Virus record (IMG/VR): IMGVR_UViG_3300044714_000031
Coordinates: 1-41,677 of that record
DNA: 41,677 nucleotides
Source: a virus
Reading direction: 5' to 3' (one strand)
Shown: in pieces, positions 1-33,279 of the stretch
Numbering within the stretch: the first letter of the stretch is position 1
Layout of the letters: every line of letters begins with the position of its first letter
Translations under genes and position numbers: made by a program
Notes under the pieces: generated by a model
Database searches by the model: none
Told to the model about the DNA's origin: nothing
The model's input: only the letters and a program-made list of their open reading frames with translations

Positions 1-3000
1 GAGACGGAGTAACCGACGACACGGCGTCGATACAGTCAACCATCAACGCCTCGTGTTCCAGCGGCGGGGCGGTCAATCTTCCGCAAGGAAAGTTCCTGGT
101 CACCATGCCGCAGACAGGGCCACTCAGCATTGCTCCTGTCTTTACAATACCCGTGGGATGCCAGGGAACAGAGGGAGGTTTCTACCTCACGGGCATGGGC
201 AACGGGGTTGGCTCCAGCCAGCAGTTCAGCATACCTCCACAAACAGAGATTATCGTCAATCCCGGACTTAGTCCCAGCATGGGTCCGGTCTTCAACTTCG
301 GCCAGAACCAGTTCAACAACCACGTCACTGGAATTTATTTCTCCTGCTACAACCAGTGCATTTCGACTTACGGGACGGCGGGAGTGTGGATGGATCACAT
401 CTCGACGGCCATTCAGAATACCGGGCAAGGAATCCAGCACGGCGCCTCGTTCATGGCCGACAACGTGGGTATCGCCATCTACGACACGTTCTGGGTCGGC
501 TGCGATTACTGCAACCTCGATGGCTATGCGGGGAACACCACTCTTCCCGTGCTTCTATTCGCTGGCGTCACTCCACTTGTCGGCGGTCGCAACATCTCCG
601 GACTATGGCTATCGCGCGGCGGAATCTGGGAAAGCGGAAACATCCTGTACGACCAACGCGTCACCCAGAACGCCGCTCCGGGAAACTTCCACTTCATAGA
701 TCTGACGCTGGAGGAGCCTGGAAACAACTTGCCGCTCATGCAGGTCACCAATGAGGCTGCTTCCGGAGACTTGGATGGCGTGGTGATGGATCAGGTGAAC
801 ATGTCGGACAGTAGTTCCGCCCCCTCTTCGGCCATCCAACTTGATGCCAATTTTACATACAGCGACTTCGAGTTGAACAACGTCCAGATTGGTTTCTTCA
901 CTCCGGCCATTCTTCTTAACTCTGGAACCATGCTGGGATGCCAGATGAAGGGTTCGGCGTCGATGGCTCGAAACATTGTGAACGGATCGGGGCAACTGGT
1001 GGCCGGGTGCGTGGGAGCGAACAACTACGGACTCGACATGGTCAGTTCATCAAGCGACACCGGGCCAGCTAGTCTCCCCTACATAACCAACATGAACTAC
1101 GGGGCCGGATTCTTCGGCTCCAACAACACCTCGACGCCAATCAGGATGACGAGCAGCGGGAACAAGTACGCGACCTTCGGAATCAGTCCAGTTGGAGGGA
1201 TCGTGTACAGCGGTGGAAATGCCTCGGGCTACGATGTCGAACTCTATCGCCCATCCGTACAAACCTTGGGAATCCGCTTAGCTCAAACAGTGGCTCCTAC
1301 TGGACTGAGCAGCGCCCTGTCTTCCGGTGGCTCGCTAAATTCGGGAACCACTTACTTCTACGTTGTGGAAGCCAACATGGTGGCCTCAACCTGCTTGGCA
1401 GCCAACTCCACGGGAACCTCTACGGAAACATCAGCCACTCCTGGCAGCGGCAATCTGACGATCAATCTGAGTTGGACTCCCTCGCCTGGAACCCCGGCTG
1501 GATACTGCGTCTACCGAGGAACCTCTTCTGGAGGTGAGAACGTTTTCTTCTATGTGGCCGGGAACCTCACTGCGAACTTTAGTGATACCGGGACCACAGG
1601 AACGGCGGGAGGTCCCGCGCCGGTCAACGCTACTTTCCCGACCACTTCGCAGCACGTTTTCAATCAGACATCGCTGGGAGTGAACACATCGACGCCTGCG
1701 TATAACCTCGACGTGAATGGAAACGGGCACATCTTCACTTACGTGGACGTGAACGAAATAGCGACGCCAGCGAATCCACCGTCAGGACTGGAGAGATGGT
1801 ACGCCAACTTCTCGACTCATCAGTTAAGTTGCATAACGAGTTCGGGAAGCAGTTGCGCGCCGACTGGTGGCGGTGGGGGATTCACCGCTGGGCAAGACCT
1901 TAGTGGAACGAGCACCGCCCAGACTGTAATCGGCTTGGAGACCATACCGCTGCCGACACTGGCCGCGAGCACCGGATTCCTTTACGACAACGCAGGAACA
2001 TTAGCTCTAAGCACAAGCGCATCCAACCTGACTACCGGGACATTGCCGCACACGCAACTTCCGGCGCTACTTTCCGCTGACATCCCCAACAACACGGCGA
2101 ACACTACTGGCACAGCGGCGAATCTCTCTGGCACTCCAGCCCTGCCCAATGGGACGACAGCCACCACCCAAGCACATGCCGACAACAGCACCTTACTCGC
2201 CACCGACCAGTTCGTCTTGCAGAACGTGTTCACTAATCCCATGAGCGGGCTGGGCGACACCCTATACGGGGGCACCGCTGGAACCGCTACCCGCCTGCCC
2301 GGTCCCACGGCACCTAACGGAATCCCCCAAGTGTGGACCGATACCCCAGCGGGTGGTGTGTCGCAGGCAGAGGCTTGGGGTATACCTGGCGTGGCTGTGG
2401 ATGAACAGTCTGGGACCAGTTACCCCATACCTATCACGGACGATGTTTCACTCTTGACTGGATGTAACGGCTCCGCAACTTCATGGAGCGGTTTCACTCT
2501 CGCCAACAACTACAGCTTCGCCTTCCTGAACCAGTGTGCGGGACTAATCACTTACACGCCAGCCTCTGGAACGGTCAATGGCAACGCAACGCAAATCATC
2601 CCCAACAAGTGGTTCGGCTTCCACTACACCGACAACACCAGCACGTTCATGCCGGTGATGCCCACGATACTCGCGTTCCCCAATTGCACGGACACCGGAG
2701 GTAATCACCTTAACTTCACCGCCGCGACTGGGGCGCTCAGTTGTGGGAACACGAGCAGCGGGGGTGGCGGCGGGTCAAGCGTGTGGAGTTCCTTGACCGC
2801 GCCCACAACCAACCTGACCTTAGCGATGGCCGGTAACACTTCGATCTTCTCAACCACTACGGCCCTCGCGCAAATGTTTGCATGGAAGAACTCGACAGCG
2901 GCCACTGTCAGCGCTAGTCAAGGTTCTCCCATCCCAGCCATCTGCGGGCGCGCGTGGACCGGATCGGACGTTGAGGACTGCATGACCTTCAGCGAGCTGC

Positions 3001-3671
3001 CAGGGAATGGATCAAACGCGCCCATCACTTTCACTATCGGCCACACGGGAACAAGCACGGGGGCGGTCACATTGAACATCCCGCCACTGCTCACTTCTTC
3101 ATCCACTCTCGGTATCTCGTCCACAGGGAACATGAGCATAAACGCCGGGGGCGGAGGCAGCATCACCATGGCCTCGGCCAAGATATTCATCTCCCAGAAC
3201 AGCGGCCTGTTTGGAACCTACGGCGGAATAGCCACGGCGGGTAAGGGTCTGCTCTCGGAACTCTACAACACTGCGGCCACCAGTCAAACAGCTTCGATTG
3301 GTTCTACCACCATGATTACCAACGCCGCAAGCGATCAGAACTATCGCTTCTCTGCCTATGTGGGTCAACTGAATATCGGGACTAGCTGCACAGGAGCAGG
3401 CAGCATCGGCGTCAACCTGATCTACACCGACCCCGTGACCGGGAACTCCTACACAGTTGTCGTAGTACCACAAGTGAGTGGAGTAACTTCTCTCGCTACG
3501 ACAATCCCGTTGACCAACGTCACTCCGGCAGTCGGCAACACCGGCTCCTTCGTCTATCAGTTCCGCTCGAAAGCCTCGACGACCATCTCTTACTCAACGA
3601 CCTACGCAGCCGGAAGCGGTTGCTCTCCAGGGCAGGCTTACAACATCTACCCGGTGCTGGAGAGTCAATGA
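1..3671 (+). CDS. Tailspike/tail fibre with pectate-lyase-type beta-helix (5' partial)
   Basis: The frame is open from the first bases (codons from position 3), so the true start lies outside the window. The first visible residues read DGVTDDTASIQ, followed by a GGAVNLPQGKFLV-like stretch. This is the N-terminal signature of the pectate_lyase_3 / right-handed beta-helix tailspike family. A beta-helix of about 400 residues follows, then a fibronectin-III-like domain (SGTTYFYVVEA, GYCVYRGTSSGGEN), then a region with SLGVNTSTPAYNLDVNG, which resembles the segment before fibre-tip domains. Long Thr/Ser/Gly-rich fibre repeats complete the protein. Its likely role is receptor binding and perhaps polysaccharide cleavage; no catalytic residues could be assigned. 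It contains more cysteines than usual for a fibre. Its TGA overlaps the next ATG. Confidence 0.8.
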   Translation, partial: DGVTDDTASIQSTINASCSSGGAVNLPQGKFLVTMPQTGPLSIAPVFTIPVGCQGTEGGFYLTGMGNGVGSSQQFSIPPQTEIIVNPGLSPSMGPVFNFGQNQFNNHVTGIYFSCYNQCISTYGTAGVWMDHISTAIQNTGQGIQHGASFMADNVGIAIYDTFWVGCDYCNLDGYAGNTTLPVLLFAGVTPLVGGRNISGLWLSRGGIWESGNILYDQRVTQNAAPGNFHFIDLTLEEPGNNLPLMQVTNEAASGDLDGVVMDQVNMSDSSSAPSSAIQLDANFTYSDFELNNVQIGFFTPAILLNSGTMLGCQMKGSASMARNIVNGSGQLVAGCVGANNYGLDMVSSSSDTGPASLPYITNMNYGAGFFGSNNTSTPIRMTSSGNKYATFGISPVGGIVYSGGNASGYDVELYRPSVQTLGIRLAQTVAPTGLSSALSSGGSLNSGTTYFYVVEANMVASTCLAANSTGTSTETSATPGSGNLTINLSWTPSPGTPAGYCVYRGTSSGGENVFFYVAGNLTANFSDTGTTGTAGGPAPVNATFPTTSQHVFNQTSLGVNTSTPAYNLDVNGNGHIFTYVDVNEIATPANPPSGLERWYANFSTHQLSCITSSGSSCAPTGGGGGFTAGQDLSGTSTAQTVIGLETIPLPTLAASTGFLYDNAGTLALSTSASNLTTGTLPHTQLPALLSADIPNNTANTTGTAANLSGTPALPNGTTATTQAHADNSTLLATDQFVLQNVFTNPMSGLGDTLYGGTAGTATRLPGPTAPNGIPQVWTDTPAGGVSQAEAWGIPGVAVDEQSGTSYPIPITDDVSLLTGCNGSATSWSGFTLANNYSFAFLNQCAGLITYTPASGTVNGNATQIIPNKWFGFHYTDNTSTFMPVMPTILAFPNCTDTGGNHLNFTAATGALSCGNTSSGGGGGSSVWSSLTAPTTNLTLAMAGNTSIFSTTTALAQMFAWKNSTAATVSASQGSPIPAICGRAWTGSDVEDCMTFSELPGNGSNAPITFTIGHTGTSTGAVTLNIPPLLTSSSTLGISSTGNMSINAGGGGSITMASAKIFISQNSGLFGTYGGIATAGKGLLSELYNTAATSQTASIGSTTMITNAASDQNYRFSAYVGQLNIGTSCTGAGSIGVNLIYTDPVTGNSYTVVVVPQVSGVTSLATTIPLTNVTPAVGNTGSFVYQFRSKASTTISYSTTYAAGSGCSPGQAYNIYPVLESQ

Positions 3672-6600
3672 GTAAGGTACTACTCTTAGTCGTCTTGGTG
3701 GGAATCCTCGCGCCCATCTCGACTCTCGCGGCGAACTCCGTCTATCTCTCGCAAGCGGGCGGCGGAACCGGAACTTCCTGCGCGAGCACGCTGGCAGTTT
3801 CCTACTTCAACACATCGGGCAACTGGTCCGCGACCCCCACGGGTACGCAGATCGGCCCTGGCACGACCGTATTCCTCTGCGGCGCTTCCATCACGACGAA
3901 CCTGACCTTCCAGGGCAGCGGTTCTGCCGGAGGATCGGGCGTCTGCGGATTTGCGGCCACAGCGTGCACGCCCGTGACGCTTGACGGCTCGAATCTAACG
4001 GCGATGAGCGCCTTCATCGACCCGAATACTTCCTATCTGGTCATTCAGAACATTACGTGGGGCACGAGTTATGCGACGAACAGCTCAACGCAGGCAGTAA
4101 TTCAATCGAACGCCGGGTCATTCATAACCATCCAGGGCAACCACATGGATGTCATCAACTCCGCTCAACTAATCTTCATGGAGAACGGCGTACACGACAT
4201 CCTGATTCAAAACAACTACCTCCGAATCAGCACGGTCCCAAGCGATGGTTTCGACACAGACGGCATTGATGCCTCGGGTGCCTTCAACGTTCTCATTCAG
4301 GGCAACACCATAGCGATGAACACAGGCTCGGGTGATGCCAGCTGCGGCGGATGTCATAACGACCTTACCCAAGTCTGGTCCAGCCAGTGCGGATCGTTCA
4401 CGCAGTACACCTGCACGCATGATTGGACCTACCGCTACAACTACTTCATTCAGGAAAGCTCGCCGTCCGTCACCAACAACCTTTCGTGGATGATTATGGA
4501 GGAAATAAGCGCCGGTAATTGGAACGTCTACGGCAATGTATTCCAGTACATTTCTGGAGGCACCAGCGGCAATGGCGCTGTCTTCGACGGGAATTGCGGC
4601 ACTGGCAGCGGTAACCCCGGAGCTTGCGGTACAGGGACGCCTTCAGCGTTCAATATTTTCAACAATACGATGGTAGGCGAATCCGGCGCGGGAAACAATC
4701 TATTAAACCTAAGCGGAGTCGGCACTTTCACCCTCAAAAACAACATCGTTTATTCCACGACGCAAGGGAACTCTTGCACAGGCGGAGTCTGCACCACGGC
4801 CACGCGCGGATACAATCTTTGGTTCGGTCCGGCATCTCCTTCCTGCGTGGCTACGGAACTTTGCGGACATGATCCATTGTTCACAAATTATTCTGCCGGG
4901 GATTACAGCCTCCAATCCAGCTCTCCTGCGAAGCTACTAGGCACGAATCTCGGAACCAGCTACAACACCGCCCCCGTTGCGGAATCGACCTGGCCGAATC
5001 CAACTGTAGGAACCAGGGCGGCTAGCGGGAACTGGGATGCGGGAGCCTACGTAGCCAGCGCTGGGGGTTGCACTGGATCGGTGACCATTTCTCCCACGAC
5101 ACTCTCCCTGGGGACCATCTCGCAAGGGACCTTAAGCGGCTGGTCAACCATTAGCATCACTAATGGAACTACCTGCGTAGCGACTCCAACAAGTTACACC
5201 TTCACCGGAGCCAACCCTTCTGACTTCCTCGCGTACTCGGCCTACAACAATACGGGTGTATGGGCAGCCTCGACCGCTTGGACTCAGGGCCAGTTTATCG
5301 TGGATTCCAACGGCTGCATGGAAACAGCGACGACACCAGGGACTGGAGGATCTACCGTTCCAGCTTGGTCGAGTCCTACCTGCATACCGGGGCCAGTGAC
5401 GGCGGACGGCGGCACGGTCAAATGGAACTCTATTGGCACCTACCCGAACGGCTGCGGGGCCACGATAGCGATAGGAGTGTCCTGCAATGCCGTGGTGGCT
5501 TTCAAGCCTACAACTTCCGGATCTGAGTCAGCCACCTTGAACTTCAACTACGCGGGCGGGGGCACATCTCCTGCGACTATCAGCGTCTCTGGCACAGGCA
5601 GCACTGCATTCGTCTCACCCAATCTTCCGGTAGCTCCAGTACAAGTGAACCTGCCACTCAAAATCATCTCCACTCCGGTGACACCATATCTTGCGTCACT
5701 GAACCAGTCACTACTGGCCCCGTCTACGACCTACACAGTGTGCGCCTCGGGATGCAGTTACACGGATGCGAACCTACAGGCGGCTCTTACTCAAGGATTC
5801 TCCGACTGTCAGACGAACAACTCGCTGGTGCAATTGTTCAACACTGAGACAGTCACCTTAAACATATCCCTCGGCGGTCTGAATATCGGAAACGGGACAA
5901 ACGGCTGCGCTGCGGGAAAGTATCTGCGCTTCGAGACTAATCATCCCGAACTGCTTCCTGCTGATGGGGTGCGCGTCAACCATTCCTACTGTAGCGCGAT
6001 GCCGCAGATCGTGGTGGGAACCTCGACTGGTTACGCGGTTCAGCTTGGTCACAACATGTCGGGCTTCGAGATGCGGGGCATCTGCTTCAGCAACGCGAAT
6101 ACCTACGTCACGCAGACGCAACAGACTTTCCGCTGTTCAGATGAATTGGTCACGGCAACAGCTTCAATCCCCAAGAACGTCATCATAGATCAGAGCGTCT
6201 TTTGGGCCGGTGGTCCTACCGGAAACCTCTCGCACACCGCGATTCTCGCAGAATGCAACAACATGGCGATCATCAACAGCGATATCGAGAATTATCAGTA
6301 CACCACGAACGACAACCAAGCTATCAACATGTTTTGCTCAAATGGGCCTGGCCTAGTCTCGAACAACACCCTTTCGGCCACGACCGAAAACACCATGATA
6401 GGGGGCCTTGGCTGCGCCATAACAGACGGCGGATTGTCGGGTAATCCCTTTCCCAATCCGGCGAATTGGACATTCGCCTCGAACTATATTTACAAGCCTC
6501 TACGCTGGAGGGTGCTGACTTGCGGTGCGGTAACGGGCAACTGCGGCGCCGGATTCTCGTTCGTGACCCTGACTCCCCAGCCCACCACATCCGCCTGCAC

Positions 6601-8080
6601 GGGAAGCCAGTGTCAGGTGAATGTCTCGTTCTTCGCCGCAAGCCAGCGGCCCGATATGCACCCGTACGACAATGCGTTAATCGCCAACTGCGCGAACACC
6701 CTGTTCAACGGTACTTTCCCGGTTTTGGCTAGCCCGTTGCCCACGAACTCAGTGAACCCGTTTACCTTCTCGGTCATCAACACAGCCCTCAACTCAACGA
6801 ACGCTCCGAACGGAACAACCACCACGGGCTGCACGATTTCAGGATTCTACGATCCCCAATGGGTGCCACCTGGAGACGGCGCTTTCAACTACACGGTCAA
6901 GGACTGCGTCGAGCAAAAGCAGGGCGTAAACGTTCTCTATATCGGCAACTGGATTGGACCGTGCTGGCAGGGCGGGCAATCCGAGATGCTGATTTTTCAA
7001 GAGGGCAATCCAGTACTTGCCACCACGAACTATGCGCCTTGGGACGCCACTGGGAACATTCGGATAACTACAAACACTTGGGACGACGCGGACATCAACG
7101 GCTACGGCCTGGAGATGTGGACCGCCTTCAACCCTGTCGTCAACGGTAGTGGCGTCGGCAGTTCCCTGGGAACCAATGGTCCTATCGAAGCAGACAACAA
7201 CATGGTGTACGCGCTAGGGCCTGAGTTCACCTTCTACGAGGAATGGCTAAGTCACAGCGGCACGGCCACGCCTCTTGCCAACGGCCAGTTGCAAGACTTG
7301 TTCGTGAATCACAACGACATTTTCCAGGCTTCGGTGAACACCGCTCTTTCCACCTTTGACCTAGTTCAGTTCGCATCTCCCAACAACTTGCAGCCAGGGC
7401 AGACGCCGTTTCTAAGGGCAGCCGCCGACAACAACATCATCGACTTTGGGCAAGTCGCCAACGGTTCGGTAGCTTTCCCCTATGGTAGCCAGAAGTGTGA
7501 GATTAACAGCGGTCTCGCGGTGCCTTGCTGGGCACCAGCAGAATGGGCGGCGAACATTCCGATTGGTACTATAGCTGGAAGCACCGCGCCCTACGGCTGC
7601 ACTACCGCTAACTCTGTAGCCACCTTCCAACCGAACGCAGGACCTGCTGGAGTGGGGAGCACTTGGTGTCCGACCGCTAATCTCTCGGCTATCGGCCTCG
7701 CCAACACTACGATCAACACGGCCAGCTCGCCCATCTCACCGGGGATCGTAACGGTGACACCGGCCTCCATGGCCAACATCACGGCCCCGGGGCTTTTGTT
7801 CGTGGGCAGCGCTACGAACGCGGAGTACGTGCCGGTCATATCCACTACAGGGACTACCTTCACAGCCCTGTTTCAGAACGCGCATACATCACAAATCACC
7901 ACAGTATTCGGCACCACTCCTCCAGTTGGCTCCATTGCCCACCTTAATGGGACTGATGGCTTGGACGTGGGCGCGAACGCTGCGGCGGTGGCCTTGATGA
8001 CTAGTTGGGTGCCATCCGGAGTGCCTCCGACCATCTCGCATTTAGCTCCTGCGCCAGCGATATTCGCGGAGACGAAATGA
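3668..8080 (+). CDS. Giant exported beta-helix protein with anchor-type and carbohydrate-binding-like domains
   Basis: The product has about 1470 residues. I chose ATG 3668 because it forms an ATGA overlap with the previous stop and gives a clean signal peptide, MSKVLLLVVLVGILAPISTLA, with cleavage before ANSVYL. Residues 25-460 are a right-handed beta-helix with repeated LIQNN/ILIQGN turns. Residues about 475-680 form an Ig-like (ASH/choice-of-anchor D style) domain, SVTISPTTLSLGTISQG, interrupted by a WAASTAWTQGQFIVDSNG module of the kind seen in phage carbohydrate-binding segments. A second beta-helix fills the C-terminal half. The many cysteines suit an oxidising compartment. It sits where a second tail fibre would, but a cleavable signal is odd for a virion protein, so it could be a surface protein of the infected cell. 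Confidence 0.7.
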   Translation: MSKVLLLVVLVGILAPISTLAANSVYLSQAGGGTGTSCASTLAVSYFNTSGNWSATPTGTQIGPGTTVFLCGASITTNLTFQGSGSAGGSGVCGFAATACTPVTLDGSNLTAMSAFIDPNTSYLVIQNITWGTSYATNSSTQAVIQSNAGSFITIQGNHMDVINSAQLIFMENGVHDILIQNNYLRISTVPSDGFDTDGIDASGAFNVLIQGNTIAMNTGSGDASCGGCHNDLTQVWSSQCGSFTQYTCTHDWTYRYNYFIQESSPSVTNNLSWMIMEEISAGNWNVYGNVFQYISGGTSGNGAVFDGNCGTGSGNPGACGTGTPSAFNIFNNTMVGESGAGNNLLNLSGVGTFTLKNNIVYSTTQGNSCTGGVCTTATRGYNLWFGPASPSCVATELCGHDPLFTNYSAGDYSLQSSSPAKLLGTNLGTSYNTAPVAESTWPNPTVGTRAASGNWDAGAYVASAGGCTGSVTISPTTLSLGTISQGTLSGWSTISITNGTTCVATPTSYTFTGANPSDFLAYSAYNNTGVWAASTAWTQGQFIVDSNGCMETATTPGTGGSTVPAWSSPTCIPGPVTADGGTVKWNSIGTYPNGCGATIAIGVSCNAVVAFKPTTSGSESATLNFNYAGGGTSPATISVSGTGSTAFVSPNLPVAPVQVNLPLKIISTPVTPYLASLNQSLLAPSTTYTVCASGCSYTDANLQAALTQGFSDCQTNNSLVQLFNTETVTLNISLGGLNIGNGTNGCAAGKYLRFETNHPELLPADGVRVNHSYCSAMPQIVVGTSTGYAVQLGHNMSGFEMRGICFSNANTYVTQTQQTFRCSDELVTATASIPKNVIIDQSVFWAGGPTGNLSHTAILAECNNMAIINSDIENYQYTTNDNQAINMFCSNGPGLVSNNTLSATTENTMIGGLGCAITDGGLSGNPFPNPANWTFASNYIYKPLRWRVLTCGAVTGNCGAGFSFVTLTPQPTTSACTGSQCQVNVSFFAASQRPDMHPYDNALIANCANTLFNGTFPVLASPLPTNSVNPFTFSVINTALNSTNAPNGTTTTGCTISGFYDPQWVPPGDGAFNYTVKDCVEQKQGVNVLYIGNWIGPCWQGGQSEMLIFQEGNPVLATTNYAPWDATGNIRITTNTWDDADINGYGLEMWTAFNPVVNGSGVGSSLGTNGPIEADNNMVYALGPEFTFYEEWLSHSGTATPLANGQLQDLFVNHNDIFQASVNTALSTFDLVQFASPNNLQPGQTPFLRAAADNNIIDFGQVANGSVAFPYGSQKCEINSGLAVPCWAPAEWAANIPIGTIAGSTAPYGCTTANSVATFQPNAGPAGVGSTWCPTANLSAIGLANTTINTASSPISPGIVTVTPASMANITAPGLLFVGSATNAEYVPVISTTGTTFTALFQNAHTSQITTVFGTTPPVGSIAHLNGTDGLDVGANAAAVALMTSWVPSGVPPTISHLAPAPAIFAETK

Positions 8081-8262: not shown

Positions 8263-8648
8263 AAAAGATATTCGCAGTAACGATGTTGGTATTGGCACTC
8301 GCGGGCTGCTCGTCATCCCCGCAAAAGTCGCTTAGCCTCAAGGCCACTGCGCACTCAGTCACGCTCGCATGGACCCAAGGGACAGTCGCTTCCGGTTCAC
8401 CAGCAATTACTGGGAACAACGTCTATCGCGGGACCACGAGCGGAGCAGAAACCATGCTTATCTCACTCACCAGTCCCGCAGCCACTTATGTCGATGGCAC
8501 GGTCGCTGCTGGCACGACTTACTTCTACGAGGTAACCGCCGTTAACTCAGTAGGAGAGTCAGCGAAGTCCAATGAAGCCTCCGCTACTGTCCCGGTAGCT
8601 ACAACCGCACCGAATCCTCCAACGGGACTAACCGGCACAGCGCAATGA
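8259..8648 (+). CDS. Lipoprotein with one fibronectin-III domain
   Basis: A 129-residue protein that starts at ATG 8259 behind GGAGGG. The N-terminus MKKIFAVTMLVLALAGCSSS is a lipoprotein signal with lipobox LAGC, so the mature protein should be lipid-anchored. Residues about 30-115 form a fibronectin-III domain of the surface type (HSVTLAWTQGT, NNVYRGTTSG, GTTYFYEVTAVNSVGES). A Pro-rich tail ends the protein. It is coupled by ATGA overlaps to the genes on both sides. An infected-cell surface adhesin or exclusion factor is possible; no function is shown. Confidence 0.7.
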   Translation: MKKIFAVTMLVLALAGCSSSPQKSLSLKATAHSVTLAWTQGTVASGSPAITGNNVYRGTTSGAETMLISLTSPAATYVDGTVAAGTTYFYEVTAVNSVGESAKSNEASATVPVATTAPNPPTGLTGTAQ

Positions 8649-9298
8649 GAATACTAGCGCTTCTGTTCCTGCTTCTCATGCCACCGGTGACGACCTACAA
8701 CTATGTTCTCAAGGCACAAGACTCTAAGGGGAACCCGCTGACAGCTATGACGTTTGCCTACACGGTGGGCGGTGCTGCTCCCGCCGCGCAGACCTTCAGG
8801 CTGTTCGACACCTCGCCATGTCCACCGATGTCAGGCGTGCCGTACTGCGCCTGGCCTAATACGACCGTGACCTCGGACTCTTCGTGGTTGATGGTGTCTC
8901 CCGCGAGCGGTACTACAGCTTTCACCGTGACCGTAACCGTTAACCCTGCATCACTCAATACGACTCAGACAGGGCACGTCATCGCAACTCAGCCTTTATT
9001 CTCAACTCCAACTCTATCTATCCCGGTAACTGTGACTGTTACCGGCGCTGCTCATTCGGTTTCTCTTACGTGGACGGCTGGGGCGGTGGACGCAACTCAT
9101 CCGGCAGCTACCAGCTACAACATTCTTAAATCTACCGGCTTCCCTGGAACTTTCGCGCAGTTCGCAACAAGCACCAGCACTAGCTTCAAAGACTCGACTG
9201 TTTCAGCCGGACAGAATGTTTGCTACCAAGTCGAAGCAGTAGCGGGAGGAAACTCGTCCGCTCCAGCACTGCCTACGATTTGCTTCACCGTCCCTTAA
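8645..9298 (+). CDS. Exported BACON-like plus fibronectin-III protein
   Basis: A 217-residue protein. The N-terminus MRILALLFLLLMPPVTTYN is a hydrophobic signal or anchor, without a lipobox. Residues about 75-135 (SSWLMVSPASGTTAF followed by TVTVNPASLNTTQTG) match the BACON/Ig-like pattern WLxVSPxSG...VxVNPxxL. Residues 138-217 form a fibronectin-III domain (HSVSLTWTAG, SYNILKSTGFPG, CYQVEAVAGG) closely similar to the one in the preceding lipoprotein. It overlaps that gene by ATGA. It is probably presented outside the cytoplasm or carried on the virion; this is inference from the domains. Confidence 0.7.
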   Translation: MRILALLFLLLMPPVTTYNYVLKAQDSKGNPLTAMTFAYTVGGAAPAAQTFRLFDTSPCPPMSGVPYCAWPNTTVTSDSSWLMVSPASGTTAFTVTVTVNPASLNTTQTGHVIATQPLFSTPTLSIPVTVTVTGAAHSVSLTWTAGAVDATHPAATSYNILKSTGFPGTFAQFATSTSTSFKDSTVSAGQNVCYQVEAVAGGNSSAPALPTICFTVP

Positions 9299-16881: not shown

Positions 16882-17820
16882 ATGGAAATAGAAGAGTTGC
16901 TTCAAGAACCAACGGCCCCTGTAGAGGAAATGCGTTCCAAGACAATCGGAACACTCGCTGAGGCTCTTGCCAAAGCACAACTGAAGTTCAAGCCAATCAA
17001 GAAGCAGGTAGAAAACGCCTTCTACACGACCGAAAAGAAGAAAGCGATGTATGCCGATCTTGCCGCAATCATTGAGGCCACGCAGGGCGCTCTCGCCGAG
17101 AACGGACTGGTAGTCATCCAGCTGCCAGTTATTAGGCCATCGCAAAAAGCGGCTGGAGTGCAAAGCCTTCTTGTCCACACTTCGGGCGAATGGCTAAAGA
17201 ACGAGGTAATCCTGCCGGCCACGGAACGACGAAAGGAATATGACGCTGCCGGTAAAGCTGAGTACAAAGACCAATTTAACGCCCAATCGTGCGGCAAGGC
17301 CATCACCTACAGTCGTCGCTATTCGTACGGAAGCATCATCGGTGTAGCGGCGGAAGAGGACGACGACGGCAACAGCATATCCATCAAAGAAAATGGCTCG
17401 GTGGAAGCTGCCAAGGCCGTGGGCGAGCGTAAGGTAGCCGCTATGAAGCAGCGCGTGGCGCAGCAAGTCACCGAGAAAGAAGTGGAATCCAACGGAGCCA
17501 GCGAGTCCCTAGAGGCTTCTGGTGAGGTTTACGGGATTCTCAAGCAGGCCAAGAAGATCAAAAACGGCAAAGCTATGGCCCTTCAAATTGTTGACCCGAA
17601 TGACCAAACCATTGTGCTGTTTTGCTTCGATGACAAGAAGTACCCATTTGGTTCCAGCCTGTTCACCTTACTGGAGCTGGCCGCAGAAGGGAACGGACAG
17701 AGCATCCGTGGCCGGATCAAGCAGAGCGGCAAGTATACGAATCTGGTAATGCCGATCGCGGTTGGTAGCGTCAATTTTGACGATGACGGAGTGCCGATGT
17801 TGGATCGCACCAGTGCCTAG
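16882..17820 (+). CDS. erf: ERF-family single-strand annealing recombinase
   Basis: A 312-residue protein behind AGGAGGAAGTC. MYADLAAIIEATQGALAENG (about residues 55-75) and GKAITYSRRYSYGSIIGVAA followed by EEDDDGN (about 138-164) are the signature segments of the ERF superfamily (P22 Erf type), which coats and anneals single-stranded DNA for phage recombination and genome circularisation. The linker after residue 165 is charged. A C-terminal domain (GEVYGILKQAKKIKNGKAMA onward) looks like an additional OB-like or accessory fold. It pairs functionally with the RusA resolvase downstream. Confidence 0.85.
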   Translation: MEIEELLQEPTAPVEEMRSKTIGTLAEALAKAQLKFKPIKKQVENAFYTTEKKKAMYADLAAIIEATQGALAENGLVVIQLPVIRPSQKAAGVQSLLVHTSGEWLKNEVILPATERRKEYDAAGKAEYKDQFNAQSCGKAITYSRRYSYGSIIGVAAEEDDDGNSISIKENGSVEAAKAVGERKVAAMKQRVAQQVTEKEVESNGASESLEASGEVYGILKQAKKIKNGKAMALQIVDPNDQTIVLFCFDDKKYPFGSSLFTLLELAAEGNGQSIRGRIKQSGKYTNLVMPIAVGSVNFDDDGVPMLDRTSA

Positions 17821-23201: not shown

Positions 23202-23242
23202 AGAAAGCCACCGAGAAGAACGAAGCCGAGGAGCGGCAATGA
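23198..23242 (+). CDS. 14-codon coupling ORF
   Basis: MKKATEKNEAEERQ, joined by ATGA to the gene before and to rusA after. It holds rusA's ribosome site (CGAGGAGCGGCA). It may only relay ribosomes into rusA and need not make a functional peptide. Confidence 0.3.
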   Translation: MKKATEKNEAEERQ

Positions 23243-23607
23243 GACTTGAGATTTCCAAAGCACCGCCCAGTGCTAATGAACTCAGGCGAAAGTACCGAAC
23301 AGTCTTTGCCTACAGGGATTTGCGCATGGCTTGGGAGAAGGATTTAACTTTCTGCACTAGCGGAGCCGTCGAGACGATTGCATTCAAGAGTCAAGCCGCC
23401 AAAAACAAGCGTTTGAGTTTGGTGATACATGTATATCGCAGGAGAGAATTGGACTTCGACAATATGGTAGCCGGATGCAAGCCGATCATAGATGCGCTCG
23501 TGAACATCGGGTATCTGGGCGGCGATTCATCAGAGCGCCTACACTGCGAAATAAAGCAAGCCTCGCCATTTAAGCCGCGCACCGTCATTGAGATAAACCC
23601 GGCATGA
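23239..23607 (+). CDS. rusA: RusA-type Holliday junction resolvase
   Basis: A 122-residue protein, normal length for the family. APPSANELRRKYR at the N-terminus and ELDFDNMVAGCKPIIDALVN followed by GYLGGDSSERL carry the RusA core. The Asp residues of DFDN and of the DALVN and GGDSS segments form the metal-binding acidic cluster, with basic residues beside them. It resolves recombination junctions and branched DNA before packaging and completes the pathway started by ERF. ATGA overlaps at both ends. Confidence 0.85.
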   Translation: MRLEISKAPPSANELRRKYRTVFAYRDLRMAWEKDLTFCTSGAVETIAFKSQAAKNKRLSLVIHVYRRRELDFDNMVAGCKPIIDALVNIGYLGGDSSERLHCEIKQASPFKPRTVIEINPA

Positions 23608-23798
23608 AAAGAAACGCACACATCGAAGTTCCTCATTGTCCCTTGCATGTCGGCCATTTCATGCGGCCATTCTTAGACGAGCACAAGATGATCGTGGGAA
23701 AGAACTTCAGCGAGCACAATGTCTACTATCGTTGTCCCGTGGTGCAGAACGGCCACAAGTGCGAGCAGGTTGCAGTGAGAGACCAGGAGGACAAGTGA
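23604..23798 (+). CDS. Small Cys/His-rich protein
   Basis: A 64-residue protein with ATGA overlap. PHCPLHVGHF and YYRCPVVQNGHKCEQ give a Cys-x2-His / Cys-x7-Cys zinc-binding candidate. Lies between rusA and another zinc ribbon gene. Confidence 0.55.
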   Translation: MKRNAHIEVPHCPLHVGHFMRPFLDEHKMIVGKNFSEHNVYYRCPVVQNGHKCEQVAVRDQEDK

Positions 23799-24022
23799 CC
23801 GAAGCTATCGAACCCAAGCTGCACGAGAATCCTAAATGTGCGTACTGTAACGCTGATCCCATGATGCTAGGCTCACGCGAGGTTCCTACCGGCGCTGGGC
23901 TACTCTTGGGCATCGTCTGGTGCGCCAACTGTGGAACCATGCTCAGCACTCAGGTTGTTGGCAAAATGGCTCCGATGCAGTTGCCACATCTCAAAGGCGG
24001 AAAGCCTGGATTAATCATTTGA
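23795..24022 (+). CDS. Zinc-ribbon protein
   Basis: 75 residues from GTG 23795 (GTGA overlap, ribosome site CAGGAGGACAA). KCAYCNADPMM and VWCANCGTML form two Cys-x2-Cys knuckles 25-30 residues apart, a classic zinc ribbon. Unknown partner. It is the last early gene before the candidate promoter at 24.03 kb. Confidence 0.6.
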   Translation: MTEAIEPKLHENPKCAYCNADPMMLGSREVPTGAGLLLGIVWCANCGTMLSTQVVGKMAPMQLPHLKGGKPGLII

Positions 24023-24066: not shown

Positions 24067-24387
24067 ATGTCTAGGAAGTTAGAGCGTGACGTACAACTCT
24101 TCGTTCACCGCGTGGAGAACCAGCTCGATAAGGCAGGGCATTCGGGAGGTTTAGAGGCGCTAACCTGTCGCTTTCTCATGGGCAAAGACCTGAAAGTTGC
24201 TGCGTTCGTTTGGGCGAAGCTTCTCAGTTACAAGTACGGACTTCCCAAGCAAACTGTCCAAGTCGCCGGGGAAGTGAAGCACACCATGACCGCCGAAGAC
24301 CGCAAGGAAGCGAACGAAGCTATCCAGAAGTTGCTCGGGCCAGGAAGCGAAACAATCGAGGTTGAGGGCAAGGAGGTGGTGAATTGA
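24067..24387 (+). CDS. Small terminase subunit candidate
   Basis: A 106-residue protein behind ACGAGGTAAATATTGC. VAAFVWAKLLSYKYGLPKQT, VQVAGEVKHTMTAEDRKEAN is similar to the C-terminal part of small terminases and other proteins placed just before large terminases. An N-terminal DNA-recognition helix-turn-helix is not obvious. Mainly position supports the call. Confidence 0.5.
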   Translation: MSRKLERDVQLFVHRVENQLDKAGHSGGLEALTCRFLMGKDLKVAAFVWAKLLSYKYGLPKQTVQVAGEVKHTMTAEDRKEANEAIQKLLGPGSETIEVEGKEVVN

Positions 24388-24995
24388 ACGCAGCTCCGGG
24401 CACCGTTGTAAGAAACGCTACTCACGATATTATCCCTGCCGATCTGGGCATTACTCCTCAACAAGCCTTAGATATGTACAATTGGCACGATAACGAGAAC
24501 ATATTCTCTACCGGCCCGACAGGTTGGGAAGCGACTTTTGAGCGCCTGTTAATCCTCGAAGACCAATTCCGCTCTGGATACGAATGTGACACGTGCGAAT
24601 GGACTGGCAAGCTCGTGTGTCCTGACTGCGATGATGGAAGTTCCAGACTCAACCCGGATATGAAGTGCAAATCCTGCAACGCAACGCGAAAGATCGATTG
24701 TCCCGACTGCAAAGGCAAAGGGATGCTGCTTGAGATCCCCGATGCAGCGCAGCGCAGGCCCACGACCGGAACGGTTCTCTCCATCGGCGAAGACGTAAAG
24801 ACCATCAAGCGCGGCGACACGGTCGTTTACTCGAACTTCGTGGGAGAGGTTTACGACCTTACTGGGATTGACTCTGTAGGCCGCGAGAAGAAGATCGTCA
24901 TCCGCGTGATGAAAGAGCGCGAAATCATCTGCCGCATCTACGGCCACATGGAACTCAAGCGTGTGAAACGCCACCAGACGCAGGCGGGAGGATGA
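24384..24995 (+). CDS. GroES-like co-chaperonin with an inserted DnaJ-type zinc finger
   Basis: 203 residues from TTG 24384, supported by AAGGAGGTG seven bases upstream and the TTGA overlap. Residues 52-60 (FERLLILED) match the first strand of Cpn10. Residues 113-135 (GMLLEIPDAAQ, GTVLSIG), 141-159 (IKRGDTVVYSNFVGEVYDL) and the end (VIRVMKEREIICRI) follow the GroES order: GGIVLP, GxVLAVG, VKVGDxVxY, ILxESDILAxI. Where GroES has its mobile GroEL-binding loop, this protein has four CxxC knuckles (68-71, 79-82, 95-98, 106-109) as in DnaJ. A 50-residue N-terminal extension precedes it. It may assist capsid or portal folding, as T4 gp31 does; this is inference. Confidence 0.65.
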   Translation: MNAAPGTVVRNATHDIIPADLGITPQQALDMYNWHDNENIFSTGPTGWEATFERLLILEDQFRSGYECDTCEWTGKLVCPDCDDGSSRLNPDMKCKSCNATRKIDCPDCKGKGMLLEIPDAAQRRPTTGTVLSIGEDVKTIKRGDTVVYSNFVGEVYDLTGIDSVGREKKIVIRVMKEREIICRIYGHMELKRVKRHQTQAGG

Positions 24996-25435: not shown

Positions 25436-27079
25436 GTGCAATCCTGGCGCATCCTCAAGCTCTGCGGCGATCCGGCAGCCGATGAGATAGCCGTAAGGCT
25501 CAACTCGCTTGGCTCGCTGTTCTTCTTCCTGCATTACACCCTCAAGCGCGACAAACTCTCCACAATCCACAAGCTGGTGTGCAAGTCTTTAGAGCGCGAG
25601 CGCCTTCGCCTGGTCCTGGAATTGCCACGCAATCACTACAAGACAACCATCGTAGCCGAAGGCTTGCCGATCTGGTGGGCTTTGCCCTTCACCGAGAACG
25701 ATGAATACCTAATGCGGCGCATGGGCTACGGCGATTCGTGGGTTAACTGGATGCACTATGCGCACGACGCTGACACGTCCACGCTGCTGATAGCCGAGAC
25801 CGAGAAGAACACGGTGCTGAACGGAACGCTTGTGGACCATCACTACCAGAACAACGAGCGGTTCAGGCACATCTTCCCCGAAATCATCCCGGACGGCACA
25901 ACGACCTGGAACACCGAGATTAAGATTCACCGTAGGAGCGCACATGGACAAGTCAGAAAAGAGGGTACTTATCATTATCGCGGGGTCGGACAAGCGGTCA
26001 CGGGATTACACCCTGCTAGAGCGATTGAAGATGACTTGTTTGGCCTGGAAGCTCAGCAGTCCGAGGCAGTCGCTGAAGCAACCATCCGCTACCACAGAAT
26101 GCTTGGAGGAGTTATCGGGAACGGAGATAACGTCGTTGATGGCAATCGCTGGAGCGTGGCCGACCTTGATGGCTGGATTCGTGAAAATGACAAGACCTTC
26201 GTCGTAGAATCGCACTCAGCGGAAGGAGGATGTTGTGAACTACATCCGAGCGGGGAAGCTTTGTTTCCCGAAGAATGGCCGATGGAGCGTCTACTTTATC
26301 AGAGGGCGCGCATGGGCGATTATGATTACTCTCACCAGTATCTCAACGTTCCCTTACTACAAAGCGACATCGTATTTAGAGCTGAATGGCTCAGGTATTA
26401 CCGTTTCAAGCAGTCCAATCCGAATAAGCCGCTCGACGATCCCACCAACTTCCTACTAGTAGAACACGAGGTCTACAATGGCAAAGCCAGAGAAGACATT
26501 GACTGTGGAGTGCTCGACCTGCGGATTATTGTGGACCCGAACCATGCCGGTAAAAGAGGCCGATGCGCTCATGCGATCTCTGTTATTGGGTACGACCAAG
26601 AAACCCAGCGATTTTACCTGCTTGATGAGTGGAGCAAATCATGCGGATACCGGGACTTCTGTGAGGAAATATACGCTACAGCTTACAAATGGGGCCTGTT
26701 TGACGTTTGGATCGAGACTGTCGCCGCGCAAGTCTATCTCAAGCTCTACCTCGAAGAGTTGAACCTCCGCAAGTCCAAGCGTCTGCGCTTCCACGACCTG
26801 CCCCTGGACAACCGCGCGGCGGCCAAAGACAGGCGCATTGAGAGCTTGGAGCCTTATATCCGCAACGAACAATTCTGGATGCACCAGTCACATTCCATTG
26901 CGCGCAAACAGCTTCTCGGCTATTATCGCGGCAAGGACATGGACGTTGATCTTATCGACACGCTCGGCTACGCGCCGCAGCTCTACAACCTCATCCGCAA
27001 GCGTGAGGTGTTGAAGAACATGCGCGAGCGGCAAGAAGAGTTCGAGAAGGTTACGGCAGATAGTCAGACGGGGTACTGA
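25436..27079 (+). CDS. terL: Large terminase subunit (packaging ATPase/nuclease)
   Basis: 547 residues from GTG 25436. ELPRNHYKTTI at 62-72 is a Walker-A-like loop with Tyr in place of the usual Gly before Lys, a variant seen in T7-like and environmental terminases. ARAIEDDLFG is Walker B with the catalytic acid. RIIVDPNHAG starts the C-terminal RNase-H-like nuclease with its metal Asp, and a further acidic pair lies near the end (DVDLIDTLGY). It drives DNA into the prohead through the portal encoded next. No clear ribosome site is present; translation may depend on reinitiation after the TAG upstream. Confidence 0.88.
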   Translation: MQSWRILKLCGDPAADEIAVRLNSLGSLFFFLHYTLKRDKLSTIHKLVCKSLERERLRLVLELPRNHYKTTIVAEGLPIWWALPFTENDEYLMRRMGYGDSWVNWMHYAHDADTSTLLIAETEKNTVLNGTLVDHHYQNNERFRHIFPEIIPDGTTTWNTEIKIHRRSAHGQVRKEGTYHYRGVGQAVTGLHPARAIEDDLFGLEAQQSEAVAEATIRYHRMLGGVIGNGDNVVDGNRWSVADLDGWIRENDKTFVVESHSAEGGCCELHPSGEALFPEEWPMERLLYQRARMGDYDYSHQYLNVPLLQSDIVFRAEWLRYYRFKQSNPNKPLDDPTNFLLVEHEVYNGKAREDIDCGVLDLRIIVDPNHAGKRGRCAHAISVIGYDQETQRFYLLDEWSKSCGYRDFCEEIYATAYKWGLFDVWIETVAAQVYLKLYLEELNLRKSKRLRFHDLPLDNRAAAKDRRIESLEPYIRNEQFWMHQSHSIARKQLLGYYRGKDMDVDLIDTLGYAPQLYNLIRKREVLKNMRERQEEFEKVTADSQTGY

Positions 27080-27339
27080 TGCGTAGGGATGACAAAGGGA
27101 ATCCGCTATACCGTCACGTTGACATCAAAGTTATCCTTCCAGAAGGTCGCAAGTCCATTCATCAGGTTGTTCACGCACCACCACGCCAAGGTTTCCATCC
27201 CGATGGCATAGATGAAATTGTTAGCAAGACAATTGAACAGCTTGACGCTCGGTTCAAATACTGGAATTTCCGTATGATTCAAAGAGGAGCAAACGCCTTC
27301 ACGTTCGTTTACGATGGATTAAGGGATCAAAGTGCCTGA
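27079..27339 (+). CDS. Hypothetical protein between terminase and portal
   Basis: An 86-residue protein, TGATG-coupled to the terminase and overlapping the portal start by 8 bases. RHVDIKVILPEGRKSIHQVV, then AFTFVYDGLR suggests a small alpha-beta fold. Basic N-terminus. Unknown. Confidence 0.6.
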   Translation: MRRDDKGNPLYRHVDIKVILPEGRKSIHQVVHAPPRQGFHPDGIDEIVSKTIEQLDARFKYWNFRMIQRGANAFTFVYDGLRDQSA

Positions 27340-29359
27340 CGCCTCCAAGCCCGAGTCAAACGTAAAGGCCAGCTTCCCCGCCCAGAAGGATTTCCAGCCC
27401 ATCACAGCCGACTTCGGCGAAGACAAGAACCAAGAAATAGAAGAATGGCTGCACGAGTCCATCCGCGTTTATAAAGACACCTTTGCCGTTATGTTCGAGA
27501 AGAAGGTTCCTGAATGGCGGAGGCTCGCCGATGGCAAACCGAAAGAAAAATCGAAGTCCTTCCCCTGGCCCAACGCTTCCAACCTGGTCGTACAAGTCAT
27601 CGGACAGCGCTGCGATGACATTGCTGCTCGCGTACTGGGTCTCGTTTGGTCAACTTCCCCGGTGGCTATGTTCCGCAGTCAGTTCGCAAAGCCTCAGGAC
27701 CCGCATCGAGAATCTGAGAAAGTGCGGATACTCGAACAGTTCATTGATAACCAGGCTTTTGACCACGAAGCCCTCGACCTCTATCGCGTCGAATGTGTTG
27801 GTTTTGCCGACAGCGCGAGGCTCGGCACCCACTTCTTCAAAGTCGTTCCCGAACATCGCATGGAAGTGACGGAAGTATCGCTCATGGGCAGCGACAAAGG
27901 CTCGAAGCGCACCAAGCTGACCGAGTCCACGATCTATACCGGGCCGCGCGTCGAGAACCTGGAGTTTGAGCACGTGATGGCCGATCCCGACGCGCCTACG
28001 TGGGACAAGTCGAGGCTCAAGACCCAGAAGCGCACGCTGCGGAAGTACGAGCTGGAAGAGAGAGTCTTCGCCGGATTCTACGACAACAAGAAGGTCCAAG
28101 AGATCATCGACCATCCCGACCGGCAAGGGCCGGAGTTTGCCAAGCAGCGCCAGGAAACAAAGAAAGGCATCAACGCCCCGCAAGCTAGGATACTGGCTGA
28201 GTGGGACATCTACGAGTGCATATTCTGGTGGTGGATCAACGGCCCGGGAGGCAAGAAGGTCAAGGTGCACCTGTTCGCTTCCTACCACTTCACGACCCGC
28301 ACCATGATCCGGCAAGTGTTCAACTTCATGCCCGACAACGCCTGCCCGATCATCCCCACCAAGCTGGACATCTCATCCAAAGGCATCCACGGCAGGGGCT
28401 ATGCGGACATGCTCGAAGCCGACCAGAACGGGATTTCAACTTGGCGTAACCAGAGGATTGATGCGCGAACTATGGCGATCACCGGTATCATTCGTTCCTC
28501 AAACCCCAACTTGGATAAAGACATCAAAGTATTCCCGTTCTGCATCATCCCCGGGGACGCTGACGAAATAGAGTTGCTAAAGAATCCGAACGACATCGGC
28601 ACAGGCGGAATCGAGGAAGAGCAGTTCATGCTCAAGACCGCTGACGACCGCGCCGGAGTATCGCAGGCCATCATGGGCATGGGCGCGGGAGGATTGAACA
28701 AGAAAGGACAATATGGCGCAGCAGGAACATTGGCACTACTTCAAGACGGGAACACTCGTAATAACCTTCGAGTCTCCGACTTTCGATATTCCCACATCAA
28801 ACTCGTATCACTATGCACGAAAGTCTTCGGCAAGTTCGGGGTCAACAACATCGAGGAGGTCTACGGCAAGGACGCGGCGCTCCTCGAAGAAGCGTTAGGG
28901 GACTTCTACAAGAACCACATCAAGATACCCATCCGCGCAACCACCGCAAGCGTCAACAAGGAAGTCGAGAAGCAGAACGACATGCTCTTGCGCAGCGCCC
29001 TGTCTCAGCATTTCCAGGAGTCGGCGCAAATCATTCAGAACATCTCAACCAATGCGGCGATGCCTCCCAACGCCAAGAAGTTCTTCACCGACGCGCTCAA
29101 GAGCCAAGACGCCATGATGATGCGCGTGCTGCGGAACTTCGGCTACGACCAGCCTAGAGAGTTTGTCCCGGAGTTCGAGACAGGAGAAGCAAATGCCCCG
29201 CAAGCCCAAGGACAGCCCAACCCGGATGCCATCAGGAAATTCCTTAGCATGGCCGGTGCTCAGCAGCTACCCGGAGCGGGCGTACCAGTGGACGCAGGCG
29301 GAGGAGTGGGGAATGTTCCGGGCGGACCTGCAAGCCCACCGCCAGGCCCACCTCAATAG
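27332..29359 (+). CDS. Portal protein
   Basis: 675 residues from GTG 27332. WRRLADGKPKEKSKSFPWPN, DMLEADQNGISTWRNQRID and TADDRAGVSQAIMGMGAGGL are typical of large podovirus-type portals, with the crown/stem core in the middle and a Pro/Gly-rich tail at the end. It forms the dodecameric vertex that docks the terminase and the tail adaptors. The last 167 bases are shared with an overlapping gene in another frame. Confidence 0.85.
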   Translation: MPDASKPESNVKASFPAQKDFQPITADFGEDKNQEIEEWLHESIRVYKDTFAVMFEKKVPEWRRLADGKPKEKSKSFPWPNASNLVVQVIGQRCDDIAARVLGLVWSTSPVAMFRSQFAKPQDPHRESEKVRILEQFIDNQAFDHEALDLYRVECVGFADSARLGTHFFKVVPEHRMEVTEVSLMGSDKGSKRTKLTESTIYTGPRVENLEFEHVMADPDAPTWDKSRLKTQKRTLRKYELEERVFAGFYDNKKVQEIIDHPDRQGPEFAKQRQETKKGINAPQARILAEWDIYECIFWWWINGPGGKKVKVHLFASYHFTTRTMIRQVFNFMPDNACPIIPTKLDISSKGIHGRGYADMLEADQNGISTWRNQRIDARTMAITGIIRSSNPNLDKDIKVFPFCIIPGDADEIELLKNPNDIGTGGIEEEQFMLKTADDRAGVSQAIMGMGAGGLNKKGQYGAAGTLALLQDGNTRNNLRVSDFRYSHIKLVSLCTKVFGKFGVNNIEEVYGKDAALLEEALGDFYKNHIKIPIRATTASVNKEVEKQNDMLLRSALSQHFQESAQIIQNISTNAAMPPNAKKFFTDALKSQDAMMMRVLRNFGYDQPREFVPEFETGEANAPQAQGQPNPDAIRKFLSMAGAQQLPGAGVPVDAGGGVGNVPGGPASPPPGPPQ

Positions 29360-31044: not shown

Positions 31045-31688
31045 TGTCTACCAGCCAGTCGTTCGACATCTCGAAGCTGCCCAAGAGTTACCGCGAAAAC
31101 CTCAAGGAATCGCATCACACACCGGATCAGTACAGTCCTGAACTAAGGGCGCTGCTTGACCCGAACATCGTAGCTCGGCGCGTGAATCTACCGCTCACCA
31201 ACATGTTCGAGATCATCAACCGCGAATACGTCTACCACCTCGCGCGCAGGATCATGGGCAAGTCTGCGGACCACAACAACTACAAGCAATTGCTGATGCA
31301 GGGCTACTCGAACGCGACCTGCAAGCCTGGATGCGAAGACACCACGGGCAAGTGTGGCTGTGACGTACACCCGCTGGTAGCGGAAGCCACCGGAGACGGC
31401 ACGGAGATAACCGTGGGCACGGACCTTGTGCTGGTCAAAGCCCGTCCCGACGTGCATTACGGGCGGCAGAAGACCTACCTGCAAAAAGCACTCAACATGA
31501 CGAATCCCGGAATGGCCGTTGGCGCTCTTCCCATGGAAGACCAGGCGGCTCTCGCTGGAACATTCACGCGTGTCCCCAGCGTTGAGGATCAGGAAAGAAT
31601 CTCAAGCCGCGCCACGCCCGAGAACTCGATACGTCGCGGCACCCCGCAATGGAACAAGATCGCCAAGACTGAGAAGGAGAACAGCTAA
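31044..31688 (+). CDS. Head-region hypothetical protein with Cys cluster
   Basis: A 214-residue protein. NATCKPGCEDTTGKCGCDVH (about residues 90-110) holds four cysteines that could bind metal. The rest is mixed, with a basic C-terminus. It lies between the scaffold-like and decoration-like genes, so it is probably a minor head protein. No family recognised. Confidence 0.6.
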   Translation: MSTSQSFDISKLPKSYRENLKESHHTPDQYSPELRALLDPNIVARRVNLPLTNMFEIINREYVYHLARRIMGKSADHNNYKQLLMQGYSNATCKPGCEDTTGKCGCDVHPLVAEATGDGTEITVGTDLVLVKARPDVHYGRQKTYLQKALNMTNPGMAVGALPMEDQAALAGTFTRVPSVEDQERISSRATPENSIRRGTPQWNKIAKTEKENS

Positions 31689-32316: not shown

Positions 32317-33279
32317 GTGGCGAACAATTTAGCGTCACGAAATACCTTCGCACCGCTACTGAAGGAAGGAATAAAGCACATTTTTGTAGAACACATCGAC
32401 TTTCAGATGCGCGAACCGCAGTACACTCGATTCTTGAAGGTGGACAATTCCGAGGACGCCTACGAAATCGACTACCACCTGGCTGGCACCGGGCCAATGC
32501 CCGAGATGCCGGAAGGAACCAGGCCGGTAGCGGACAACATCATCCAGTCGGGCACCAAGAAGTACTTGCACCTTCCCTACGGGTTGCTGTCGCAATTCAC
32601 CCGGCAACTGGTGGAAGACGACAAGTACGGCATCATCGTGCAGACCACCAAAGCCCACGCGCGCTCCGCGCTCTACGCTCGCGAGGCGGTCTCGGCGAAC
32701 GTGCTGAACCTTGGCGGAACCCTGCAATTGACCGATGATGGCGTGACGCTGTTCAACACCGCGCATCCTCTCCCGGGTGGAACGGAAGCAACTAGCGTAG
32801 GGCCGGGCCTTGCGAACATCATCAACTCGGCAGGCACCTATCCCAACCGGCCATCGCCAGACGCGGACTTCTCCTTCACTTCCTTGCAGCAGGCCATCAA
32901 CTACTTCTACCGCTTCACCGATGGGCGCGGCATCCCATCGATGGTTCGGCCCAAGCATGCGGTGATCCCGCCTGAACTCATCATGATTGCCCGCGAGATT
33001 CTGGGCAGCCCGGGCAAGCCGTACACTGCGGACAACGAACTTAACGCGCTCCAGGGCGAGAACCTGAACTTCTACCACCTGAACTACCTGACCAGCCCTA
33101 GCGCATGGTTCCTGCTGGCGGAAAAGGATGAGACTTACCTGCGCTTCTACGAGCGCGTCGAGATCCAGGGGCAGACCGATGACGACTTCCAGACTCAGGT
33201 TCTTTTGCTCCTGACCACGCAGCGGTTCAGCGCTGGAGCAACAAGTTGGATCAACACATTCGGCAGCTACGGCCCGTAA
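32317..33279 (+). CDS. Major capsid protein (HK97 fold expected)
   Basis: 320 residues from GTG 32317 with a strong ribosome site AGGAGAGTACT. DFQMREPQYTRFLKVDNSED, LLSQFTRQLVEDDKYGIIVQ, TLFNTAHPLPGGTEA and PKHAVIPPELIMIAREILGS match capsid proteins of the Mu gpT-like / HK97-fold group. It forms the icosahedral shell. The strong ribosome site fits high expression. Confidence 0.85.
   Translation: MANNLASRNTFAPLLKEGIKHIFVEHIDFQMREPQYTRFLKVDNSEDAYEIDYHLAGTGPMPEMPEGTRPVADNIIQSGTKKYLHLPYGLLSQFTRQLVEDDKYGIIVQTTKAHARSALYAREAVSANVLNLGGTLQLTDDGVTLFNTAHPLPGGTEATSVGPGLANIINSAGTYPNRPSPDADFSFTSLQQAINYFYRFTDGRGIPSMVRPKHAVIPPELIMIAREILGSPGKPYTADNELNALQGENLNFYHLNYLTSPSAWFLLAEKDETYLRFYERVEIQGQTDDDFQTQVLLLLTTQRFSAGATSWINTFGSYGP

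Follow-up and report, generated by a model that had tools for sequence, protein, structure and literature searches.

Co-chaperonins of the GroES/Cpn10 family grip GroEL with a part called the mobile loop. The bacterial members (PF00166) share a barrel, a hydrophobic tripeptide preceding the return of the chain to the barrel, and T-x-G and G-D motifs; the tripeptide of GroES, I25-V26-L27, contacts helices H and I of GroEL (PMC3514286). The T4 protein gp31, which serves head-protein folding, is a phage-encoded Cpn10 barrel that lacks the roof hairpin and has a flexible loop of 22 residues without a zinc module (PMC6318259). Chloroplasts possess Cpn20 (7ekq), a tandem double barrel also without a zinc module, as well as BSD2, in which four CxxC pairs are arranged as a cysteine-rich domain like that of DnaJ. 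Phage Cpn10 proteins and DnaJ-type modules are each known, and our searches of structure libraries, named phages and open-access literature returned no case of the two combined in the mobile loop.

The window analyzed here is a stretch of 41,677 nucleotides from the IMG/VR virus record IMGVR_UViG_3300044714_000031. Its open reading frame at 24384-24995 was confirmed to encode a protein of the Cpn10/GroES family whose mobile loop contains an inserted zinc-type module of four CxxC pairs. As with gp31, the barrel is phage-encoded and devoid of the roof hairpin, and the gene lies among head and packaging genes, but the loop carries a zinc-type module of 45-60 residues. The barrel, the tripeptide and both sequence motifs of bacterial GroES are kept, and the protein differs from GroES in its loop module, its N-terminal extension and its missing roof hairpin. 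The best PDB sequence match of the zinc-type barrel is Cpn20. The module resembles BSD2 and the DnaJ cysteine-rich domain in its four CxxC pairs and its predicted fold (Z ~6), and is set apart by its shorter spacings, the lack of a J-domain and its embedding in a co-chaperonin loop. Plain Cpn10 proteins of sister phages (L052-L054, L057-L060) accompany a related capsid gene set and have the same loop flanks and a shortened roof, but they contain no zinc module and their gene is found elsewhere in the genome.

In single-protein scans, the window protein matched Pfam Cpn10 above the gathering cut-off (E 2.8e-5, residues 117-160) and the co-chaperonin Cpn20 in the PDB (E 4.7e-10, residues 102-185), and a PDB profile search returned Cpn10 (E 1e-13). 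Twenty further distinct homologues were collected from IMG/VR contigs of uncultivated phages, at first through the neighboring large terminase and portal genes and later with a family alignment. All 20 rows of the family alignment matched Pfam Cpn10 separately, and 19 matched an NCBIfam GroES model. The DnaJ_CXXCXGXG family (PF00684) was matched by 14 of the 20 aligned members (E 0.01 or better), and BSD2_CRD and the NCBIfam model DnaJ_bact by 11 each; the window protein alone fell below the cut-off for DnaJ_CXXCXGXG (E 0.066). Pfam scans of the window protein and the 20 aligned members detected no J-domain family, and the homologues show no full-length alignment to DnaJ. One phage protein (L050, ORF ~5610-6378) was dropped as a family member, having a CxxC stretch and no Cpn10. 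That stretch is DnaJ-like in its own right (CDRCDGFG ... CPTCKGKG), and the protein is perhaps a small terminase.

The open reading frame is a real gene under purifying selection. A chance origin is contradicted by the 20 other distinct viral homologues, by the independent Cpn10 matches in every aligned member and by the low dN/dS (0.04-0.10 across the whole gene in four closely related homologous pairs, synonymous sites being near saturation in pairs that include the window protein). The ribosome-binding site AAGGAGG is located 7 bases 5' of the TTG start, which overlaps the TGA stop of the upstream gene, and the GC content of the gene is 54%, against 55% for the window.

Features of the co-chaperonin gene and its surroundings, in window coordinates
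Feature	Position	Strand	Basis
Upstream overlapping gene, small terminase-like	24067..24387	+	Position and look of its relatives; without database match
AAGGAGG ribosome-binding site	24370..24376	+	
Co-chaperonin gene with zinc-type module	24384..24995	+	203 aa, TTG start; ORF, Pfam/PDB scans, family alignment
First Cpn10 barrel strand, ERLLILED, residues 53-60	24540..24563	+	Alignment to E. coli GroES; predicted strand 54-59
Inserted zinc-type module, residues 64-112, four CxxC pairs (C68-C109)	24573..24719	+	Alignment, Pfam scans; BSD2 fold match over model residues 64-117
L-E-I before P119, in place of the GroES IVL tripeptide	24729..24737	+	Alignment to E. coli GroES
Rest of Cpn10 barrel, residues 119-187	24738..24944	+	Pfam scan, predicted model
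Shortened roof-hairpin position, GEDVKTIK	24786..24809	+	Profile search, alignment
Terminase large subunit	25436..27079	+	phrog_38, E 9.8e-47
Portal protein	27332..29359	+	phrog_1216, E 1.4e-8
Major head protein	32317..33279	+	phrog_371, E 4.5e-10

The insertion was mapped against E. coli GroES from the MG1655 record. In this alignment the module enters after approximately residue 19 and ends just before G23-G24-I25-V26-L27, inside the mobile loop. Its CxxC pairs in the window protein are C68/C71, C79/C82, C95/C98 and C106/C109; seven of the eight cysteines are invariant among the 20 aligned members, and C82 is kept in 19, missing only in L049. An earlier, sequence-only reading of this DNA had proposed a GroES-like fold carrying a DnaJ-type zinc finger at the mobile-loop position. 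The barrel on both sides of the insert was borne out by the Pfam and PDB matches, the GroES alignment and the predicted barrel, and the location of the module by the alignment. The four CxxC knuckles that it named are present as well, but their spacing was said to be that of DnaJ and this part needs refinement: the window protein has CxxC-x7-CxxC-x12-CxxC-x7-CxxC and the spacings differ between members. In view of these spacings, the module is best called DnaJ/BSD2-like.

The same reading held that the GroEL-binding loop had been replaced, and here the alignments point to an interruption instead. Immediately after the module, almost all members keep a mostly hydrophobic tripeptide, usually followed by P-D/E, which argues that the mobile loop is split by the module, and the plain sister Cpn10 has the same flanks. 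The GroEL-binding end of the loop thus appears to survive the insertion. Tripeptides in other members are I/L/V-rich, including I-V-I and L-V-V. The window protein and its three closest relatives have an acidic middle residue (L-E-I or L-D-I), and in this clade GroEL binding could be weakened. Both the profile search and the alignment to E. coli GroES found the roof hairpin to be missing from the zinc type. Besides its mobile-loop module, one homologue (L047:5061-5729) bears a further pair of CxxC knuckles where GroES has its roof hairpin.

AlphaFold modeled the window protein with a mean pLDDT of 74; values exceed 90 in most barrel blocks, lie mostly at 84-90 in the module, and are low for the final 13 residues and for most of the N-terminal 38. 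The top PDB matches of this model are all Cpn10 proteins, including 1p3h (Z 11.2 over 87 residues), 3nx6 (1.3 A over 66) and the complex of gp31 with GroEL (2cgt, Z 10.3). Matched separately, the module resembles BSD2 (6ekb; Z 6.0 over 54 residues). The homologue L041, which like L042 is the more GroES-like, was modeled with a similar alignment and led to the same outcome at higher confidence (Z 10.6 to 1p3h; 1.2 A over 66 to 3nx6). The BSD2-like match recurs in both models at Z 6.0-6.5, scores that are modest by themselves. A Cpn10 barrel with a BSD2/DnaJ-like module is therefore the predicted architecture in two models, and the barrel-less fold that could have undermined the initial proposal was not seen. 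A viral structure library contains many Cpn10 proteins, and among the 50 matches listed none covers both parts (query-normalized TM-score <=0.36).

The genomic context agrees with the packaging operon to which the gene had been assigned. In the window the order is small terminase-like gene, zinc-type co-chaperonin, small acidic protein, large terminase (TerL) and portal, with the major head protein further along; this last would be the likeliest client of the co-chaperonin. In the window, as in the 18 related contigs of the phage group, the zinc-type gene precedes TerL by 0-2.3 kb. Two homologues (L048 and L049) occur in other phages with DNA polymerase and primase nearby, beside replication rather than packaging genes, which suggests that the zinc-type gene has moved between backbones or predates this phage group. 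Elsewhere in the window, two overlapping small cysteine-bearing ORFs without a PHROG match (64 and 128 aa, 23604-24022) are situated just 5' of the terminase region, and an ERF-type recombinase (16882-17820, E 8.1e-18) and a RusA-like resolvase (23239-23607) were identified. Two very large proteins of 1188 and 1486 aa (105-3671 and 3620-8080) have no clear family, the second having a weak Ig-like match, and their neighbor at 8645-9298 has a sub-threshold viral BACON match.

Three records whose TerL, portal and head genes are related to those of the zinc type (G009, G010 and G011) have, at another place in the genome, a gene for a plain Cpn10 of ~100-134 aa; a fourth (G026) has a close relative of it. 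The plain loop reads DEF[K/R]YSG-R-I-V-V-P, against DEFRSGYEC...GG-I-L-V-V-P in the zinc-type L041, so that the flanks match and the module is absent from the plain form. A tree of portal proteins puts zinc-type and plain phages on separate sides, with a single change needed (support 100/100). No zinc-type record contains a second Cpn10 over the cut-off, an absence that is not firm since the records are incomplete. The zinc type thus appears to stand in for the ordinary co-chaperonin, and the comparison with the sister phages is the strongest evidence for this.

We consider it probable that the protein is a phage-encoded GroEL lid, a counterpart of GroES and gp31, with a folded DnaJ/BSD2-type zinc module added in its mobile loop. 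Seven subunits would form a ring that caps host GroEL by means of the retained hydrophobic tripeptide, and the missing roof hairpin would leave an open dome as in gp31, suiting phage head proteins. From their attachment in the loop's N-terminal arm, the modules could add as many as seven contacts where GroEL meets the lid; a module might retain the client, a task that the DnaJ module partly performs, or might make the loop more rigid and let the phage lid bind GroEL more tightly than host GroES. The heptameric ring, zinc binding, GroEL binding, the head-protein client and the role of the module are parts of this model that we infer. Counting against the model, the N-terminal 38 residues, predicted with low confidence, are left without explanation, and capping might be hindered by a folded insert of 45-60 residues, since the loop has to become ordered on GroEL. 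A more far-reaching proposal, possible though doubtful, is that one polypeptide unites an Hsp40-like client-binding zinc module with an Hsp10 lid, so that the phage would deliver its own head proteins to GroEL, cap them with the same ring and outcompete host GroES. The module might instead be purely structural, ordering the loop and tuning GroEL affinity with no client contact, a sub-case of the GroEL-lid model whose likelihood overlaps with it and which seems somewhat unlikely. It is favored by the wide variation in module length and internal loops around fixed cysteines, and by the L041/L042 pair, in which the module evolves faster than the Cpn10 part (dN/dS 0.42 versus 0.07). In the L005/L037 pair, however, the module (dN/dS 0.02, the other end of the range for the module alone) is conserved to the same degree as the remainder of the protein; moreover, DnaJ-type modules touch clients elsewhere (PMC4428491) and other phage Cpn10 proteins manage with a short loop.

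Whether GroEL is involved at all bears on another explanation, which we regard as improbable: a GroEL-independent ring chaperone or assembly factor, in which the Cpn10 ring is only a scaffold and its zinc modules, presented to portal, terminase or capsid proteins, do the substrate binding. The zinc domain of DnaJ does contribute to client binding and BSD2 aids Rubisco assembly without a J-domain (PMC4428491), the gene adjoins terminase and portal genes, and the window clade has its acidic tripeptide residue. Against this stand the tripeptide and proline kept in nearly all members, I-V-I and L-V-V forms included, the plain Cpn10 used by sister phages, and the replication-side location of L048 and L049. 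Since the tripeptide is kept and a plain sister Cpn10 has the same flanks and no module, a protein that binds GroEL and has an additional module is a likelier reading than the bypass of GroEL that the sequence-only reading had also entertained. Far less credible is a nucleic-acid-binding or regulatory protein reusing a Cpn10-like barrel: the gene adjoins a small terminase-like gene and a few members match anti-TRAP and an antitermination Q-like family, whose zinc knuckles are of the same general kind, but these matches involve three to five members and concern the cysteine knuckles, while co-chaperonin models are matched by 20 of 20.

Relatives outside the IMG/VR contigs were sought in several collections. 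A peptide-pattern search of bacterial and archaeal genomes, a method that can miss divergent relatives, returned none. With five family members as queries, INPHARED phages yielded no zinc-type relative; the matches were partial and limited to the Cpn10 portion, and they occurred in Bacteroides phages (SJC03 has a plain Cpn10 of 87 aa), in DSL-LC05 (annotated GroES) and in the unannotated human fecal phage records MT838442.1 and MT837166.1. Cellulophaga phage phi18:3 (KC821620.1; L069 and L070) encodes two different Cpn10-like proteins (record positions 31117-31338 and 41800-42051), one of ~85 aa and one of ~200 aa, which were rejected as a second zinc type, there being no zinc module in either. 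A search of the open-access literature, which does not extend to subscription journals, turned up no description of a GroES with a zinc module.

If a folded zinc-type insert has been maintained throughout a diverse phage group, the junction between GroEL and its lid would prove able to accept an added domain. The plain and zinc-bearing Cpn10 proteins of sister phages offer a natural comparison, and the zinc type would allow a direct test of client selection by a lid, an issue that gp31 and gp23 have raised.
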